From Fidelibacterota bacterium (GTDB taxonomy: Bacteria; Marinisomatota; Marinisomatia; Marinisomatales; UBA1611), in the NCBI GenBank assembly GCA_002722105.1, contig PBKF01000005.1, positions 1-38,818 of the forward strand: a DNA stretch of 38,818 bases, read 5' to 3'. This document shows, piece by piece, positions 10,847-19,544 of this stretch. The translations under genes were made by a program, and so were the position numbers. Every line of letters begins with the position of its first letter. Position 1 is the first letter of the stretch. Under the pieces are notes generated by a model. That model saw only the letters and a program-made list of their open reading frames with translations. It did no database searches and had not been told where the DNA came from.

Positions 10847-12703
10847 GTGGAACAGAAAATAAATCCTCACATCCTACTATGTGCTTTAAGTTTAAGTCTT
10901 TTGTCATGGACTTGCGAAGATCTGCAGGATGATTTACCGAAAGAATTACCAGTAGCGGACACAACCCCTCCTCAAGCTGTAATTATTTATCCTGTAGATG
11001 GTGTCTCTGCGGCGGGTGATGTAACAATAGTCGCCCGTGCTACAGATAATGATGTGGTAGATTCTGTTCAGTTTTATATTAATCAAAAATGGGTAGGGAC
11101 AGACACGACTGGCGCAGAAGACTTATTTGAATACATCTGGAATACACGTGAATATAAAGAAGATGATTTCCACTTTATATCAATTGTAGGATATGATGCT
11201 GCGGAAAATGAATACGCATCATTTCCAATCCGGATCAAAGCGGATAATACTGATAATGAGCCACCGGTAGCTTTCCTGTTAAATCCCTTTGCGGGTCAGG
11301 TTGTCCAGGGACTTGTTGAAATAACTGTGGAAGCAACGGACAATGACAGTGTTCAATATGTCAGCTATTACATCAATAATATTCTACAAGGATATGTATT
11401 GGAACGGCCGTATACCTATCTCTGGAATACGGCTACAGTAGTGGATGATGAATACTATTCTATTTATACTGTTGCAAGAGATATGAGTAATAACGTCACA
11501 ACCGTTCCCCCTATCAGTGTTCTTGTAAATAATGATATTCAAAATGATTTAATGCCACCTACTGGCTCCATTACCAGTCCACCCGCAGGGTTGACCGTTA
11601 GCGGTGAAGTGTCAATTATTATCAGTGCAACAGATAACCGTGCAATGGGAGAAGTAGCCTTATCTATTGATGGAAATTATATTACGACAATACAAGAGAT
11701 ACCCTATTATTATATCTGGGATACGACTCTTGAAGAAGAAGACGAAGAGCACACGATCAGTGTAGTTTTAATTGACCTAGCAGGAAATGAGACTGCTTTA
11801 AACCCTATTTCAGTTTTTGTAGATAATGAACCGCCGGAAGACACAACACCGCCTACTGTATTGATTATGGAGCCTGCCGCAGGACAAAACTTGAGTGGCA
11901 TTGTATCTATTAAAGTACATGCTGAAGATGATACCGGTATAGATAGAATTGAATTCTTTGTCAATGGTGACTCTGTTCATACAGATGATACTGAACCATA
12001 TAGCTTTGAATGGGATACTGAAACAGTTACAGATGATATGGAACATATAGTCGCTGTCATGGGTTTTGATCTGGATGGGAATGGGATGCTAGGTTCGCCG
12101 ATTGCAGTCTATATTGATAATTTTGATAATGTTGCACCTTCAGGTCAAATTCTAAGTCCGGTAGCTGGTCAAACAGTTGATGGAATGACCACGATTGAAA
12201 TATCCGCCACTGATAATGTGGGAATTAAAACAATTGATATAGCTATTGATGGAAATTACAGAACTACTCTTACTGAATTCCCTTACACCTATGAATGGGA
12301 CACAACGAGCGAAACAGATGATAGTGATCATGTCATCAGTGTGGTAGTTGCAGATTCTTCTGACAACATAGCTTATGTTCAACCTGTGAGTGTTTATGTC
12401 AACAATATCACGGATGATACTACGCCGCCCGTTATTGCTATTACGAATCCACTTTCAGGTCAATCGGTTAGCGGAGTTGTGAATTTCACAGTCATGGCAA
12501 ATGATGATTTTGGAATAAGTGTAGTTGAATTTTTCGTAGATGGTGAATCAATTGATTCAGTTACTGAAGAAGATTATCAAGTAGACTGGAATACTTTATC
12601 ATTGGAGAATGGTAGCCAGCACACATTATCCGCTTCGGTTACAGATCATGCCGGTCACACAACCATTGCCCAACCAATTCTTGTAACTGTGTCAAATGAA
12701 TAG
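10847..12703 (+). CDS. Six-repeat bacterial Ig-like (Big_7 type) surface lipoprotein
   Basis: A 618-residue exported protein starting at GTG 10847. The signal ends at LLSLLSWTCEDL, where the cysteine probably carries lipid although the lipobox is loose. The mature protein is six tandem domains of about 95 residues. Each opens with a PP/AP-x4-P segment (for example PPTGSITSP) and carries xGQTVSG, a SATDNxG strand, an FFVDG-like strand, a PYxYxWDT motif and a closing VxVNN. This matches the Big_7-type Ig domain seen in adhesins and polysaccharide-binding proteins. No catalytic domain is present, so it is probably a spacer or adhesive surface protein. It overlaps the next gene by eight bases (ATGAATAG), so the two are made together. 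Confidence 0.85.
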   Translation: MEQKINPHILLCALSLSLLSWTCEDLQDDLPKELPVADTTPPQAVIIYPVDGVSAAGDVTIVARATDNDVVDSVQFYINQKWVGTDTTGAEDLFEYIWNTREYKEDDFHFISIVGYDAAENEYASFPIRIKADNTDNEPPVAFLLNPFAGQVVQGLVEITVEATDNDSVQYVSYYINNILQGYVLERPYTYLWNTATVVDDEYYSIYTVARDMSNNVTTVPPISVLVNNDIQNDLMPPTGSITSPPAGLTVSGEVSIIISATDNRAMGEVALSIDGNYITTIQEIPYYYIWDTTLEEEDEEHTISVVLIDLAGNETALNPISVFVDNEPPEDTTPPTVLIMEPAAGQNLSGIVSIKVHAEDDTGIDRIEFFVNGDSVHTDDTEPYSFEWDTETVTDDMEHIVAVMGFDLDGNGMLGSPIAVYIDNFDNVAPSGQILSPVAGQTVDGMTTIEISATDNVGIKTIDIAIDGNYRTTLTEFPYTYEWDTTSETDDSDHVISVVVADSSDNIAYVQPVSVYVNNITDDTTPPVIAITNPLSGQSVSGVVNFTVMANDDFGISVVEFFVDGESIDSVTEEDYQVDWNTLSLENGSQHTLSASVTDHAGHTTIAQPILVTVSNE

Positions 12704-15700
12704 ATTTTTTCTTTTTCTAGTACCACTTCTAATGATACTTCTCAGCTGTGAAGAGGGCCCATTTTTTGAAGTGCCGGAAGGACAGGATTCCATTCCTCCA
12801 ACATTGACACTGACTTTCCCCCCTGATCAGGCTACCCTATCGGACACCATTCTTGTTACGGCCTATGCCTTTGATAATATGGAATTAGATATGGTCACCG
12901 TTTATATTAACGATTCTGCTATTATTACCCAAAAGGATGGTCCCTACGAGTATTTATGGATTACCAACGATGCAGAAGAAGATGCCTATCATACTTTATA
13001 CGCACAAGCTGAAGACGCCGCTGGGAATATTAATCGTACCATCCCAATTCAGGTTTTAGTTGATAATGTTGATAATGTGATGCCAACCGGTTCATTAATC
13101 TACCCTTTCACAGGGCAAACTCTTTCCGGTGAAATTACTATTATTGTGGAAGCACAAGATAATGAAGAAGTTTCATTTGTTAATATTTACATTGAAGGTG
13201 ATACAGTAGCCATATTAACTGAATCTCCTTATACATATAAGTGGAATACAGAAGAAGAAATTGACGATATTACCTATGTCATACATGCTCATGTAATAGA
13301 TGCCGCAGGAAATCAAACAACACTGGGGCCCATTTCAATTCTCATTGATAATTATGAAGCAGATGACAACATTGCTCCAACTGGTAATATTACTAACCCT
13401 GCTTCTGGTTCTACTGTTTCTGGAACGATTGACATTGAAGTTACAGCCTATGATGATGTTGAAATGGGTTTTGTAGATTTTATTATAGACGGGTCTGCTG
13501 TCGCCCAGGATGATTCAGAGCCTTACTCCTATAGTTGGAATACAACGGAAGCTACAGAAGATGTAGATCATACAATAAATGTAAATATAATCAATGCTGC
13601 AGGGAATTCTACTGCACTTTTCCCGGTCACTGTTTTTGTAAACAATATAGAAGAACAAGATATCATAGCACCCAATGTAATATTATATGAGCCTGCAGCA
13701 AATCAAACTGTTTCCGGTACTGTAAATATAACAGCTATTGTATTTGACAATGTTGGTGTTAATCGTGTTGAATTTTATCGTAATTATGAACTTGAAACTA
13801 CCATAAGCACATTTCCCTATACTTACGAATGGAATTCCACATCTGTGGATGATGATTCAGAGCATACATGGTATGTTAAAGCATTTGATACCAGTGAGAA
13901 TCATTCCCAAACCCAACCCATTGCTGTCTTTGTTGATAATGATGATAATATTTATCCAACAGGTTTTTTTCTCTTTCCTTACGCCGGTCAAACAGTCAGT
14001 GGAGTCATTGAAATTCAAGTATCTGCTTCTGATAATATTGGCATTGAACAAGTAGAGTTCTTTGTTGAAGGTAGTTCCATTGGGTTTGACACAGCTGAGC
14101 CGTTTAGTTTTCCCTGGGATACAGAAACAGGTGAAGAAGATGGTGAACATGTATTAGGAGCGATCATCAAAGATTTAGGTGGTAATGAAACTGATATTCC
14201 GCCTATATCGGTATTGGTTAATAATGTGGTAACACCTGATGATGACACGACACCACCTGTAGCATCAATTTTGACACCAGTTTCAGGTCAAACTGTTAGC
14301 GACTCAGTATTTATTTCTGCTTTTGCGACAGATAATATTGGAATCCAACATGTTCAAATTTTAATCGGTGAAGAATTGGTGGCTACCATAACTGACTCTC
14401 CCTACACACACCTATGGGGTACATATGGTCTGGCAAATGGTAGCGAATACGTGATTCAAATGATAGCCAGTGATCTTTCAGGGAATGCAACAACAGTTCA
14501 ACCTGTAGCTGTGACGGTTCAAAATGAATATGAAGGAGAAATTGAAAACGTAAACTTGGCAGTCTTAGAAGAAACAGTCGCTCTCAGCTGGGATGCACCA
14601 TACGATGCCGTGTCATTTAAAGTTTACCGTGATGATTTATTTTTGGTAGAAACTTCTAACCAATTCGTAAATGATTCTATTACAGGCGGCATTGAATATT
14701 GTTACAAAGTTGCAGCTGTCAATAGTGTTGGAATTGAAGGACCAATATCAGATGAGTTATGCGGTATTCCATTATTACCGGCACCTAGTTCCTTTAGTGC
14801 TACCGTATTTGAAGACACAGTTAATTTAATCTGGGATGGTTTAGAATATTCAGATGGTTATATAATTAAACGAAATGATATTGAGATCTGGAATGGAACA
14901 GAATTAACATTTACTGATACAGATCTTTCACCCAGTACAACCTATTTATATACCATCACTGCTTTTGATTCTTTTGGTACAAATGGCACAGAGTCAGACC
15001 CTCTAATTGTCACTACTCATGAAGAATTATTACCACCGGAATTATCCATCACAATAAGCCTATCCATTGGAACCTTAGCATGGACTTCTGTTTCTTCTGC
15101 TTCCGCCTACCGTATTTATAAAAATAATTCACATATCGCTGAAGTTAGTGATATCAATTATGACGTTGAATTAGATGGTGGCACCGCTACATGCTTTTTT
15201 GTCACAGCAATTAATGAGTATGGCTCTGAAAGTGCACCATCCAATCAGGAATGCGGTGTCCCTATACTAGCTGCACCTGTTTCATTTAATGCAACTATTA
15301 ATGATACCAATGTTACTTTAGCTTGGTCTGCAGTAGATAACGCTTCTGGATATATTATAAATAAGGATGATATTGAAATATGGTCTGGTACATTATTAAC
15401 CTTAACAGATTATGGATTGGCATATAATACATCTTTTAATTATACTGTTACTGCAGTTGATTTTGAAGGGGCTGCAGGTGAAGAATCTGATCCATTGAGT
15501 GTAACAATGCCAGTAGAGTTAACTGTGCCCGTCATTTCAATTAATGTTTCAGGTACAGATGCAAGTTTGAGTTGGTCTTCTGTGCCATCTGCTTCAGCTT
15601 ATCGTATTTACAATAATAGTTCTTTCATACAAGAAGTGATAAATACTAATTATGAAACTGAATTATTTCATGATACCGAAGCATGCTTTACTGTAACTGC

Positions 15701-16001
15701 TATTAATGACTATGGATCTGAAAGTGATTTTTCTAATGTAGAATGTGGGACTGGGAACTTTACCCCACCTGTCCTTTCATTAACAATAAGTGATTCAACG
15801 GCGATACTTAATTGGGGTTCAATTATTTCTGCTGAATCTTATAAGGTTTATCAAGGGGATAGCTTTTTTGTAGAAGTATCTGCTCTAAGTTATGAAGTTG
15901 ATATTGAGACAGATGAGACAACTTGTTTTAGTGTTTCTGCCGTTAATTCCTACGGAACAGAGAGTGAAACATCTAATGAAGAATGCGGTTCAGGATCTTA
16001 A
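12696..16001 (+). CDS. Lipoprotein with six Ig-like and six Fn3-like domains
   Basis: A 1101-residue lipoprotein with canonical lipobox LLSC (ending at residue 18). Residues about 30-615 hold six Big_7-type Ig domains like those of the preceding gene. Residues about 617-1101 hold six fibronectin-III-like domains of about 80 residues (W in the second strand, VYRDD/IYKNN strand, AxNxxGxES loop). The Fn3 domains come in two kinds: domains 1, 3, 5 and 6 have a cysteine pair (such as CFFVTAINEYGSES with a second Cys 17-22 residues on), while domains 2 and 4 have none, suggesting duplication of a two-domain unit. The protein is a long surface rod, probably adhesive; no enzyme domain is seen. Confidence 0.88.
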   Translation: MNRFFLFLVPLLMILLSCEEGPFFEVPEGQDSIPPTLTLTFPPDQATLSDTILVTAYAFDNMELDMVTVYINDSAIITQKDGPYEYLWITNDAEEDAYHTLYAQAEDAAGNINRTIPIQVLVDNVDNVMPTGSLIYPFTGQTLSGEITIIVEAQDNEEVSFVNIYIEGDTVAILTESPYTYKWNTEEEIDDITYVIHAHVIDAAGNQTTLGPISILIDNYEADDNIAPTGNITNPASGSTVSGTIDIEVTAYDDVEMGFVDFIIDGSAVAQDDSEPYSYSWNTTEATEDVDHTINVNIINAAGNSTALFPVTVFVNNIEEQDIIAPNVILYEPAANQTVSGTVNITAIVFDNVGVNRVEFYRNYELETTISTFPYTYEWNSTSVDDDSEHTWYVKAFDTSENHSQTQPIAVFVDNDDNIYPTGFFLFPYAGQTVSGVIEIQVSASDNIGIEQVEFFVEGSSIGFDTAEPFSFPWDTETGEEDGEHVLGAIIKDLGGNETDIPPISVLVNNVVTPDDDTTPPVASILTPVSGQTVSDSVFISAFATDNIGIQHVQILIGEELVATITDSPYTHLWGTYGLANGSEYVIQMIASDLSGNATTVQPVAVTVQNEYEGEIENVNLAVLEETVALSWDAPYDAVSFKVYRDDLFLVETSNQFVNDSITGGIEYCYKVAAVNSVGIEGPISDELCGIPLLPAPSSFSATVFEDTVNLIWDGLEYSDGYIIKRNDIEIWNGTELTFTDTDLSPSTTYLYTITAFDSFGTNGTESDPLIVTTHEELLPPELSITISLSIGTLAWTSVSSASAYRIYKNNSHIAEVSDINYDVELDGGTATCFFVTAINEYGSESAPSNQECGVPILAAPVSFNATINDTNVTLAWSAVDNASGYIINKDDIEIWSGTLLTLTDYGLAYNTSFNYTVTAVDFEGAAGEESDPLSVTMPVELTVPVISINVSGTDASLSWSSVPSASAYRIYNNSSFIQEVINTNYETELFHDTEACFTVTAINDYGSESDFSNVECGTGNFTPPVLSLTISDSTAILNWGSIISAESYKVYQGDSFFVEVSALSYEVDIETDETTCFSVSAVNSYGTESETSNEECGSGS

Positions 16002-16959: not shown

Positions 16960-17409
16960 TTATTCTGACAATGTCGTTTTTGGGAAAAATTCTAATTCTG
17001 TTTTATCTCTTTTCCAGACCAAGTAAGATGCTGCCAAATAAAATAAATTTTCTATTACTTTTATCCATCCAACCATTTCTCCTTCCTTTAGTCCGCACCC
17101 ACATTCAATGTTATAACCTCTTATTATAGCTTGGCTGATTAAAATTATAAACAGTACAAACAACCCACCACTGATTAAGCTTGCACCATCAACCATAATT
17201 CCTGAAATCAAACCTATACCTATCAATAGTTCTAGCCAAGGAATAATCAATGCAACAATATTTTCTAGACCAAAGGGTACAATATGGTAGTTAGAAATAT
17301 CCCGGGAAAATTTTGCTGGATCTAGTATTTTCTGATAGCTTGCATATACAAAAACTATACCCAGAATACATCTAATCAATACAACTATGTAGGGATGTAC
17401 TTTAGTCAT
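16960..17409 (-). CDS. MauE/DoxX-type redox-associated membrane protein
   Basis: A 149-residue inner-membrane protein with four predicted helices (about 7-24, 50-70, 78-95, 119-135). It has the MauE/DoxX pattern (RCILGIVFVYASYQKILDP near the N-terminus) and an ECGCG motif with C103 and C105 after the third helix, as in MauE-like proteins thought to move electrons or sulfur across the membrane. I chose ATG 17409, not the upstream in-frame start, because it overlaps the rhodanese stop by eight bases (ATGACTAA) and the extra N-terminus is only antisense-like sequence within the rhodanese gene. It is the last protein gene of the YciH-selenoprotein-rhodanese operon and probably shares a redox task with them. 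Confidence 0.8.
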   Translation of the reverse strand: MTKVHPYIVVLIRCILGIVFVYASYQKILDPAKFSRDISNYHIVPFGLENIVALIIPWLELLIGIGLISGIMVDGASLISGGLFVLFIILISQAIIRGYNIECGCGLKEGEMVGWIKVIENLFYLAASYLVWKRDKTELEFFPKTTLSE

Positions 17410-17887
17410 GAAATTCAATCTCCAGGCCAGCATCAGTCCATGATTTCCAGCCACCCTTAAAAACAAAAATATTCATAAAACCAAAATCCTGTAATTCATA
17501 TGCCAAATCTTCACTAGAACCGCATTCATCATCACTGCAATATATCACAAATCCTTTATCAACCCCTCCAAGAAGATACTCAATTTGTTCAATCAATAAT
17601 TCAATATCATCATTTGCTATAGCACCAGGGATCATACCTTCTGATAAATATTCTTCTGATCTTGCATCAACAAAAAGCATTCCCTTTTTATGCAAGGATT
17701 GTGCAGCATTAAAATCAATTTCTCTTACCTGATGGTCAGAAAGAATTAATAATGCATCATCTACTTCTGTTACAACTTTAAGTGGTTCCGCAATCCAGGG
17801 GATGGATTCATCTCTAGCCAAATTTGATATGAATCCTGCAATAATTGCACCAATGATATAGAAAGAGAGTTGCTTTTTATAATTCAA
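17402..17887 (-). CDS. Membrane-anchored rhodanese-domain protein
   Basis: A 161-residue protein. An N-terminal hydrophobic segment (FYIIGAIIAGFISNLA) anchors or exports it. The rest is one rhodanese domain: LFVDARSEEYLSEGMIPGAI and the active-site loop VIYCSDDECGSSEDLA with C117 as the persulfide-forming residue and C122 nearby, then FVFKGGWKSW near the end. The start is TTG 17887; the open frame begins only nine codons upstream at the preceding gene's stop, and no ATG fits before the anchor. The domain probably faces the periplasm, which is inference. It lies between the selenoprotein and the MauE-like gene, suggesting sulfur transfer or thiol redox as a common role. Confidence 0.85.
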   Translation of the reverse strand: MNYKKQLSFYIIGAIIAGFISNLARDESIPWIAEPLKVVTEVDDALLILSDHQVREIDFNAAQSLHKKGMLFVDARSEEYLSEGMIPGAIANDDIELLIEQIEYLLGGVDKGFVIYCSDDECGSSEDLAYELQDFGFMNIFVFKGGWKSWTDAGLEIEFHD

Positions 17888-17911: not shown

Positions 17912-19105
17912 CTAGTGATCATGCCCAACATGATTCCCTTTATATTTTGGTTTACTTTTTGATTTTTCATTAGTCTTTGCTTCTTTTGGTTTTAAGGATG
18001 AACAGGTAGCAAGTGATTCATCTACAAAAGCTAAGATTTCTGGATTATCTTGAATTTTTTTATTCAATGCAACGGTTTGAAACTCCATGGTATTAATAGC
18101 AGATTGTATTACATCTTCTGATTCCTTTAGGTCCTGTCTGTACTGTTCAATAAGTTTTAATACATTCTTCTGATTGGCATATAACTCTTCTAATGGTTTT
18201 TTCGGGTCTTTCTTTTGCAACTTTCTAAATCTTCTCTGAATCGATTTGATATTTTTTTCATGAGAAGAAACATCTATAATTGGTTCCGTTTGATCAGATA
18301 GATTGATAGTTAATACAGATAGATATTTCCCTTGTTTACCGCAGGAATAAATATAGGGTCCACCTTCTTTCTGCGGTGTATTTGGCCTTGTCATATTTGT
18401 ACTTCCACTAGTAACAATAAAATCTGCATTTGCAAATTTTTCAGGCAAATGACTATAAGTTTTACGATCACTATTAACTAGAATCACAACTAAATCTGCT
18501 TCTTTAGAGACTTCATCAATATAGCTATTTCCTGCTTCAATATAATCGTCAGCAATAATGGATTTAGTAGTATCCGGTAACTTATCTGACACTCCAATGA
18601 TACCAACTTTCAATGCCCCTTTTTCAACAATCCGATAAGGTTGAAATAATAGTGATTTTGTCACCGGGTCTCTTAAGTTTGCGGATAAAAACGGAATATC
18701 ATTTTCTGTTTCCATCTGCTTTAAAAAGGATAACCCATTCAGAACTTCGTAATGACCAACATTGATAGCATCACAACCAATTCGGCTATAACCTTCTAAT
18801 ATAGCTCCGGCACGATACTTCTCAGATTTTATATTTGTTGGATTCAATTTAGATGTACTGAAAAATAGATCTCCAGCATCAAGAATCAGCGGGTCAATTC
18901 CTTCATCCCTCATTTCATTGATTTTTACATATCGTCTGGACAGACCGCCCAGTGGATTTTTCTTTCAGCCACAGGGGTCTAACTGCCCATGAACACTACC
19001 GGAAAGTACCATAGTAACTGATCCATGACCTGATGCTTCAGAGCAAGACCAGAATAGCATTGAAGCTATCAAAGCAGTTAGAAAATACTTTATTGTTAAT
19101 TTCAT
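17912..19105 (-). CDS. Selenoprotein: metallophosphatase-like lipoprotein with in-frame TGA (Sec47)
   Basis: From ATG 19105 the frame gives a lipoprotein signal (MLFWSC, Cys21), then GSVHGQLDPCG, a TGA at 18967-18965 as codon 47, and KKNPLGGLSRRYVK, and continues without a break to TAG. The 397-residue product is a relative of the calcineurin-like/5'-nucleotidase (UshA) N-domain: HGQL, LDAGDLFF (D76, D79) and CDAINVGHYE stand where the family has DxHG, GD and GNHE, so metal ligands are partly lost (Ser for Asp, Gly-His-Tyr for Gly-Asn-His). Family members I recall have Cys at the TGA site (CGC...GGLxRR). Residues about 280-350 are coiled-coil-like, and the tail ends HVGHDH. The gene starts three bases after the YciH stop. 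Calling a start at 18913 would lose the signal and the motif. The function is unknown; redox chemistry at CGU is inferred. Confidence 0.85.
18936..18967 (-). promoter_or_regulatory. Bacterial SECIS element downstream of the in-frame TGA
   Basis: On the minus strand the TGA (18967-18965) is followed by 12 unpaired bases, a six-base-pair stem CTGGGC/GTCCAG (one G-U pair) and the five-base loop GGTCT (18946-18942). Loop start is 18 bases after the TGA. In E. coli fdhF the spacing is the same and the loop also reads GGUCU, in which the G and U are contacted by SelB. This supports Sec insertion rather than termination. Confidence 0.88.
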
Positions 19106-19108
19106 TTT

Positions 19109-19435
19109 TTATCCGCCACTTAATTTGACGTTGTAGCCTTTTTGTACTAATATTTTTTGTATTTTTCCCCTGTGATTCCCCTGTATCAGAATATCACCAT
19201 TCTTGACAGAGCCTCCTACTCCACAACTTTTTTTTAATTCTTTGGCTATGGTAAGCAATGTAGTGTCCAACTCATTTAAACCCTTTACAACAGAAATGAT
19301 TCTTCCACCGCCCTTTCGATCTAAATGTATTCTAACTTTCTGAACTGCAATATCAATAGAATTATATTTTGGTTTCTTTTCATCAATTGATTGAGAAACA
19401 TCTGTGGAGTAAACAATTTTTGAGTTTTTTGTCAT
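19109..19435 (-). CDS. yciH: SUI1/eIF1-family translation factor (YciH-like)
   Basis: A 108-residue protein of the SUI1 fold. The signature region is VRIHLDRKGGGRIISVVKGL, then LKKSCGVGGSVKNGDILIQG and GKIQKILVQKGYNVKLSGG, the usual C-terminal SUI1 block. The N-terminal 40 residues are variable. ATG 19435 is preferred over a TTG at 19474 because it is the first ATG and leaves a family-typical length. The family binds the ribosome and in bacteria is linked to start-site fidelity and selective repression. It is the first gene of the operon with the selenoprotein, three bases before it, a pairing with no obvious functional reason. Confidence 0.88.
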   Translation of the reverse strand: MTKNSKIVYSTDVSQSIDEKKPKYNSIDIAVQKVRIHLDRKGGGRIISVVKGLNELDTTLLTIAKELKKSCGVGGSVKNGDILIQGNHRGKIQKILVQKGYNVKLSGG

Positions 19436-19544
19436 TTTTGTTTCAAAACAATTTGTGGGAAATTTTGTTCCCAATTTCTACCACAAAAACTACTAATTTT
19501 TTAAACAGAATAAATAGAATCAATTCATCAATATCAAGTCTTCT

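Follow-up and report, generated by a model that had tools for sequence, protein, structure and literature searches.

A TGA predicted to be read as selenocysteine in a UshA-like lipoprotein gene of SAR406 bacteria

The window analysed here is the whole stretch of 38,818 nucleotides of contig PBKF01000005.1 (Fidelibacterota bacterium, assembly GCA_002722105.1), and the gene in question lies on its minus strand between positions 19105 and 17912. Judged by sequence comparison, this gene very probably encodes a selenoprotein in which the UGA at codon 47 is read as selenocysteine (Sec). A first-pass annotation of the window had proposed such a missed selenoprotein, and the proposal is supported by the TGA and Cys codons of related loci, by constraint on a hairpin behind the TGA and by the Sec machinery of relatives. 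SelB and tRNA-Sec would decode the UGA, guided by this hairpin just 3' of it, a predicted selenocysteine insertion sequence (SECIS); in the window's own organism, Sec decoding is most likely. The protein is a divergent relative of the known UshA-like (PCGU) family. The elements concerned are as follows:

17912 to 19105, minus strand: gene for a predicted UshA-like selenoprotein that is 397 residues long, begins with a lipoprotein-like signal (Cys21) and would carry Sec47
18965 to 18967, minus strand: predicted Sec codon, an in-frame TGA in a C-G-U motif, assigned from the frame and from comparison with relatives
18936 to 18952, minus strand: predicted SECIS core hairpin; its stem has six pairs and its loop, GGTCT, spans 18942-18946

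Between ATG 19105 and the stop at 17912 the frame has a single interruption, the TGA at 18967-18965, and three bases separate the ATG from the stop of the preceding SUI1/YciH gene, all as first described. Conserved coding sequence flanks the UGA on both sides. In a scan of the window for frames with one TGA, at least 15 codons before it and at least 60 after it, this frame (46 + 350 codons) was by far the longest of 12. The runner-up (20 + 170 codons) is the frame of a MauE-type gene prolonged upstream into the overlapping rhodanese gene; its TGA at 17475 was judged spurious as a second readthrough, since it precedes the MauE profile match and sits inside the rhodanese gene.

The relatives of the gene belong to the Marinimicrobia (SAR406). 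Some match at E 1e-3 was obtained in 231 of 245 genomes of this phylum, many of the matches being weak. At the site itself, DNA was read in the window and in 70 other loci (30 and 40 from two collections), and a TGA or a Cys codon was aligned with the window's TGA in all 70, the outcome of a database comparison of the extended protein that the annotation had suggested. The codon is TGA in 51 of them, among which is the named relative Neomarinimicrobiota AM-382-M06 (L001, 59% identical), and TGT or TGC in 19, so that with the window 52 TGA genes stand beside 19 Cys genes. The earlier statement that relatives have C-G-C at this place is thus right for 19 loci and wrong for most. The Cys genes are carried by G192 and by 18 small genomes (0.4 to 1.0 Mb) of the set G037-G060. 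In a tree of 71 proteins the window clusters with rows of G125, G126 and G128 (99/96), the Cys rows sit among the Sec rows, and two Sec/Cys changes are required, of which the one in G192 is separate. As the root was set at the midpoint and the placement of the large Cys clade depends on long branches, a direction from Sec to Cys is likely, not proven. The Cys gene of G192 (L080) has one codon fewer and occurs in a genome with selA, selB, selD and tRNA-Sec. Five genomes (G147, G129, G125, G128 and G133) hold a second UshA-like gene (L088, L090-L093), also with a TGA and with GGTCT at +18.

In the window gene, GGTCT begins 18 bases past the TGA on the six-pair stem of a hairpin whose stability exceeds that of 97.6% of 500 sequences recoding this peptide synonymously. 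Loop and distance had been described as equal to those of Escherichia coli fdhF, and the fdhF sequence (NC_000913) confirms this: GGTCT begins at the same distance there, although the sequence flanking the loop differs on both sides. For comparison between genes, the TGA set comprised 52 members, or 51 where L040, whose contig begins at the site, was omitted; the Cys set comprised 19, or 18 without L080 in the codon tables and in the loop and wobble-pair counts. GGTCT at +18 is present in 51/52 TGA genes (the exception being L086) versus 2/18 alignable Cys genes. The Gly codon at +6 is GGC in 51/51 TGA genes; in Cys genes it is GGA (13), GGT (3), GGG (1) or GGC (1). Codon +7 is GGT in 50/51 TGA genes. 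Any Gly codon at these two positions would leave the protein unchanged. The wobble positions of codons +5 and +9, which would face each other in the stem (pair 17,29), form a standard pair in 49/52 TGA genes (GC 30, AT 12, GT 5, CG 2) and a non-pairing TC in three; in Cys genes they pair in 9/18. No shuffle in 100000 reached 49, with the shuffles ignoring relatedness; as a control that preserves relatedness, the pair was ranked among the 595 wobble pairs of the region, where it came first on both measures, excess pairing and mutual information. Relative to synonymous recodings, fold stability has a mean z of -1.8 in the 52 TGA genes and +0.05 in the 19 Cys genes, none of which (0/19) folds at or under the 0.05 level. 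Comparative evidence therefore places a hairpin with a conserved apical loop just past the UGA. In a distant subgroup (L084, L085, L087 and L101), GGTCT is kept at +18 and the predicted stem is shifted by one base, so that the loop differs between members of a single family.

Evidence on selA, selB and tRNA-Sec was drawn from the 245 relatives' genomes, where scores over the cut-off were obtained for selB in 166, for selA in 175 and for tRNA-Sec in 153. For the comparison of TGA with sense-codon genomes, matches up to E 1e-20 counted as selA (178 genomes, 175 of them over the curated cut-off), and genomes were taken among the matches listed; the TGA position was verified on DNA in 52 genes. 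On this basis, selA or selB is present in 115/122 genomes with a TGA-bearing match (both in 106) and in 1/19 genomes with a sense codon (G192). Both are missing from 24/24 of G037-G060. A search of 38 genomes for selD found it in 18/19 near TGA genomes (the exception being G132) and in G192, and none of the 18 small Cys genomes yielded it. A single TGA, its position unchecked, lies within the selD frame of G192 and of 16 of these 18 near TGA genomes. tRNA-Sec over the cut-off was found in 0/18 small Cys genomes and once in G192. Weaker tRNA-Sec matches in the small Cys genomes were rejected as selC, being below the gathering score and corresponding to tRNA-Ser or tRNA-Leu in 19/19 loci inspected. 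ARAGORN called tRNA-SeC with anticodon TCA in 6/6 chosen high-scoring loci of the phylum, one of them from G129, near the window. Absence of Sec machinery had been named by the first-pass annotation as a finding that would speak against Sec; near relatives have selA, selB, selD and tRNA-Sec. In one Cys clade, that of the 18 small genomes, selA, selB, selC and selD went undetected and the SECIS region is relaxed.

Several observations weigh against a selenoprotein or narrow its assignment. The Sec machinery was demonstrated in relatives, with the window's own genome outside the search, and 7/122 TGA genomes among the matches listed have neither selA nor selB: G001 (the genome of L001), G067, G075, G099, G117, G133 and G225. 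Incomplete assemblies are likely here because several hold other parts of the system (tRNA-Sec over the cut-off in G067, G117 and G225, selD in G117 and G133). In only 25/52 TGA genes does folding against recodings reach the 0.05 level, no SECIS matched in Rfam at E up to 10, and RNAalifold returned no structure for 51 TGA genes, whose stems slide by one base between subgroups; a chosen subset of 42, picked for CTG at codon +8 followed by T or C, gave a four-pair stem. Against profile NF041198 (UshA_like_PCGU, UshA-like (seleno)protein), the extended protein scores 238.8 bits, below the curated equivalog cut-off of 275.

Were the organism to read TGA as tryptophan, residue 47 would be Trp, as it is in all 21 records that span the site among 120 public homologs listed (P0003, P0008, P0014 and 18 others; in P0080 the alignment at the site is undecided). 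These records are most likely artefacts of gene calling with genetic code 4 on short contigs, because related DNA has TGA there; further selenoproteins may hide in public records of this kind. Within the window, TGA is the ordinary stop of 7/33 open reading frames (ORFs), which together contain 194 TGG codons; the sense codon at the site is Cys in 19/19 loci, the anticodon-TCA tRNA of relatives is tRNA-Sec, and GGTCT at +18 with its covarying stem would need another cause. A tryptophan reading is accordingly exceedingly unlikely. The TGA might instead be a plain stop, with the 333-residue ORF from 18913 as the real protein, and 98 of the 120 listed homologs indeed begin past it. Homologs all starting at codon 65 had been named in the earlier annotation as counting against its proposal; these 98 records do begin past the TGA, but in relatives the GQLDPCG peptide and the SUI1 neighbour extend upstream. 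The peptide before the TGA is conserved, Cys replaces the TGA at 19 loci, and the short form would lack the signal-like N-terminus and the first predicted strand (residues 28-35), so that we consider a plain stop very improbable. Decay of the gene or a sequencing error can produce a single stop in one frame and merits next to no credence here, given a TGA at one codon common to 52 genes; of the 22 rows behind L012-L033, 20 have one TGA and no further stop within the match, and the other two (the matches of G130 and G131) have more than one stop. Selenocysteine at codon 47 is the reading we retain.

Even as a selenoprotein, the product could have kept metal-dependent phosphoesterase or thiosulfohydrolase activity, C-x-U then serving as an additional regulatory pair. 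The predicted fold agrees with this, being that of the 5'-nucleotidase-type N-domain (model residues 23-384). The two-metal ligand set over five motifs that characterises UshA-type metallophosphoesterases is, however, mostly lost across the 21 aligned sequences: the motif I Asp column holds S, N or G in 21/21, motif III has Asn in 0/21, motif IV has His in 2/21, and motif V has its first His in 3/21 and its second in 0/21. The columns were read from the alignments; their roles as metal ligands in motifs I-V are presumed. A phosphatase function was judged unlikely from these columns, and a metal-dependent enzyme with a regulatory C-x-U pair appears rather improbable. Because the ligand motifs are mostly lost and C45-G46-U/C47 is invariant in the 21 sequences, redox or sulfur-transfer chemistry, which the Cys-Sec pair of a periplasmic lipoprotein would carry out, is favoured. 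Residues 39-48 of the model, with a predicted local distance difference test score (pLDDT) below 50, weigh against this assignment of function.

The neighbours of the gene in the window are:

19109 to 19474, minus strand: SUI1/YciH translation factor, a frequent upstream neighbour
17402 to 17887, minus strand: rhodanese with the motif Y-C-S-D-D-E-C-G, a Cys form distantly related to NF041203 and a frequent downstream neighbour
16960 to 17466, minus strand: MauE/DoxX-type membrane protein with E-C-G-C-G, a neighbour identified by profile match

The TTG at 17466 is a mechanical start for MauE; translation probably begins at the ATG some 19 codons downstream, because in 9/28 relatives a stop breaks the mechanical frame at residues 11-18. 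In 31 loci with flanks (L001 and L021 being of one genome, and some misses falling at contig ends), the rhodanese and MauE were each found by the gene in 28 and SUI1 in 27, and the full set of four was present in 24. The rhodanese motif Y-C-x4-C-G-S-S is kept, free of stop codons, in 28/28 relatives, and C-G-C of MauE likewise in 28/28. Thirteen wider loci, taken from four Cys-clade genomes, G192 and eight distant TGA genomes, were searched with the window's own proteins and yielded the rhodanese in 4, MauE in 3 and SUI1 in 0; as these proteins were the sole queries, diverged neighbours may have escaped in distant loci. The order rhodanese-MauE-UshA occurs in L111 and L117. Elsewhere in the window, on the plus strand at 10847-16001, lie two neighbouring ORFs with 618 and 1101 residues; both are built of similar units in repetition and probably encode secreted surface proteins.

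Based on sequence features, it is plausible, if short of probable, that the selenoprotein is a periplasmic redox or sulfur-transfer lipoprotein, probably acting with the adjacent rhodanese and MauE. Against a shared function stands the scarcity of the rhodanese near the gene in the wider loci, 0/4 in the Cys clade and only 4/9 in the others; MauE, with the same queries, was found near the gene in 0/4 Cys-clade loci. A more speculative possibility is that a phosphoesterase fold gave up its metal centre and became catalytic again through a Cys-Sec redox centre, that lipoprotein, rhodanese and MauE of SAR406 would form a periplasmic relay taking up sulfane sulfur, for whose reduction the inner membrane would supply electrons, and that the small-genome clade met the loss of its selenium machinery by switching this single enzyme to Cys and separating it from its partners.

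These results correct a gene that public calls truncate or assign a Trp. They also provide a natural experiment within one family, with 52 genes of Sec type and 19 of Cys type: in 18/19 of the latter, the SECIS constraint has vanished together with selA, selB, selC and selD. In addition, they place Sec machinery in most of the 245 SAR406 genomes searched. A 2016 survey (PMC5029168), in the part consulted, records an orphan SelD for three genomes of SAR406. In a paper on streamlining (PMC6143742), a word search of the main text found 'selen' solely within an author's name. Among the literature matches listed, there was no account of Sec use across the Marinimicrobia, nor of a rhodanese-MauE neighbourhood of UshA-like selenoproteins.

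The kind of protein is already known, as indicated by the NF041198 match, an ocean survey and reviews. In the sections consulted, the 2008 Global Ocean Sampling study (PMC2398784) places COG0737 UshA-like C-x-U proteins, with 76 sequences, among the selenoprotein families represented more than 40 times, and the family also appears in reviews of 2022 (PMC9312934) and 2026 (PMC13188914). The window protein shares the PCG-U/C motif and the marine bacterial origin with these proteins and matches NF041198 over residues 9-386 (E 1e-70), most of its length; 21/21 aligned members match this profile too. With a score below the cut-off, the window protein ranks as a relative or member of a subfamily rather than as a certified equivalog, and it has 397 residues against 519 model positions. 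What is new here, set beside NF041198, is the spread within SAR406, the joint loss of machinery and SECIS, the loss of most phosphoesterase metal ligands with C-x-U/C invariant, and the frequent SUI1-rhodanese-MauE neighbourhood (24/31 loci with flanks). The rhodanese is a distant match (E 4.4e-12) to the C-x-U rhodanese Rhodanese_LYCAU NF041203, form 3 in the part consulted of the 2026 review, from which it differs in its score (45.8 bits, where the cut-off is 115) and in being a stop-free Cys form in all 28 relatives' matches. With the 5'-nucleotidases UshA and CD73 and the thiosulfohydrolase SoxB, the window protein shares the predicted fold; unlike them, it lacks most metal-ligand motifs and has C-x-U, and its chain is shorter, the alignment with UshA reaching only about residue 372 of the UshA entry.
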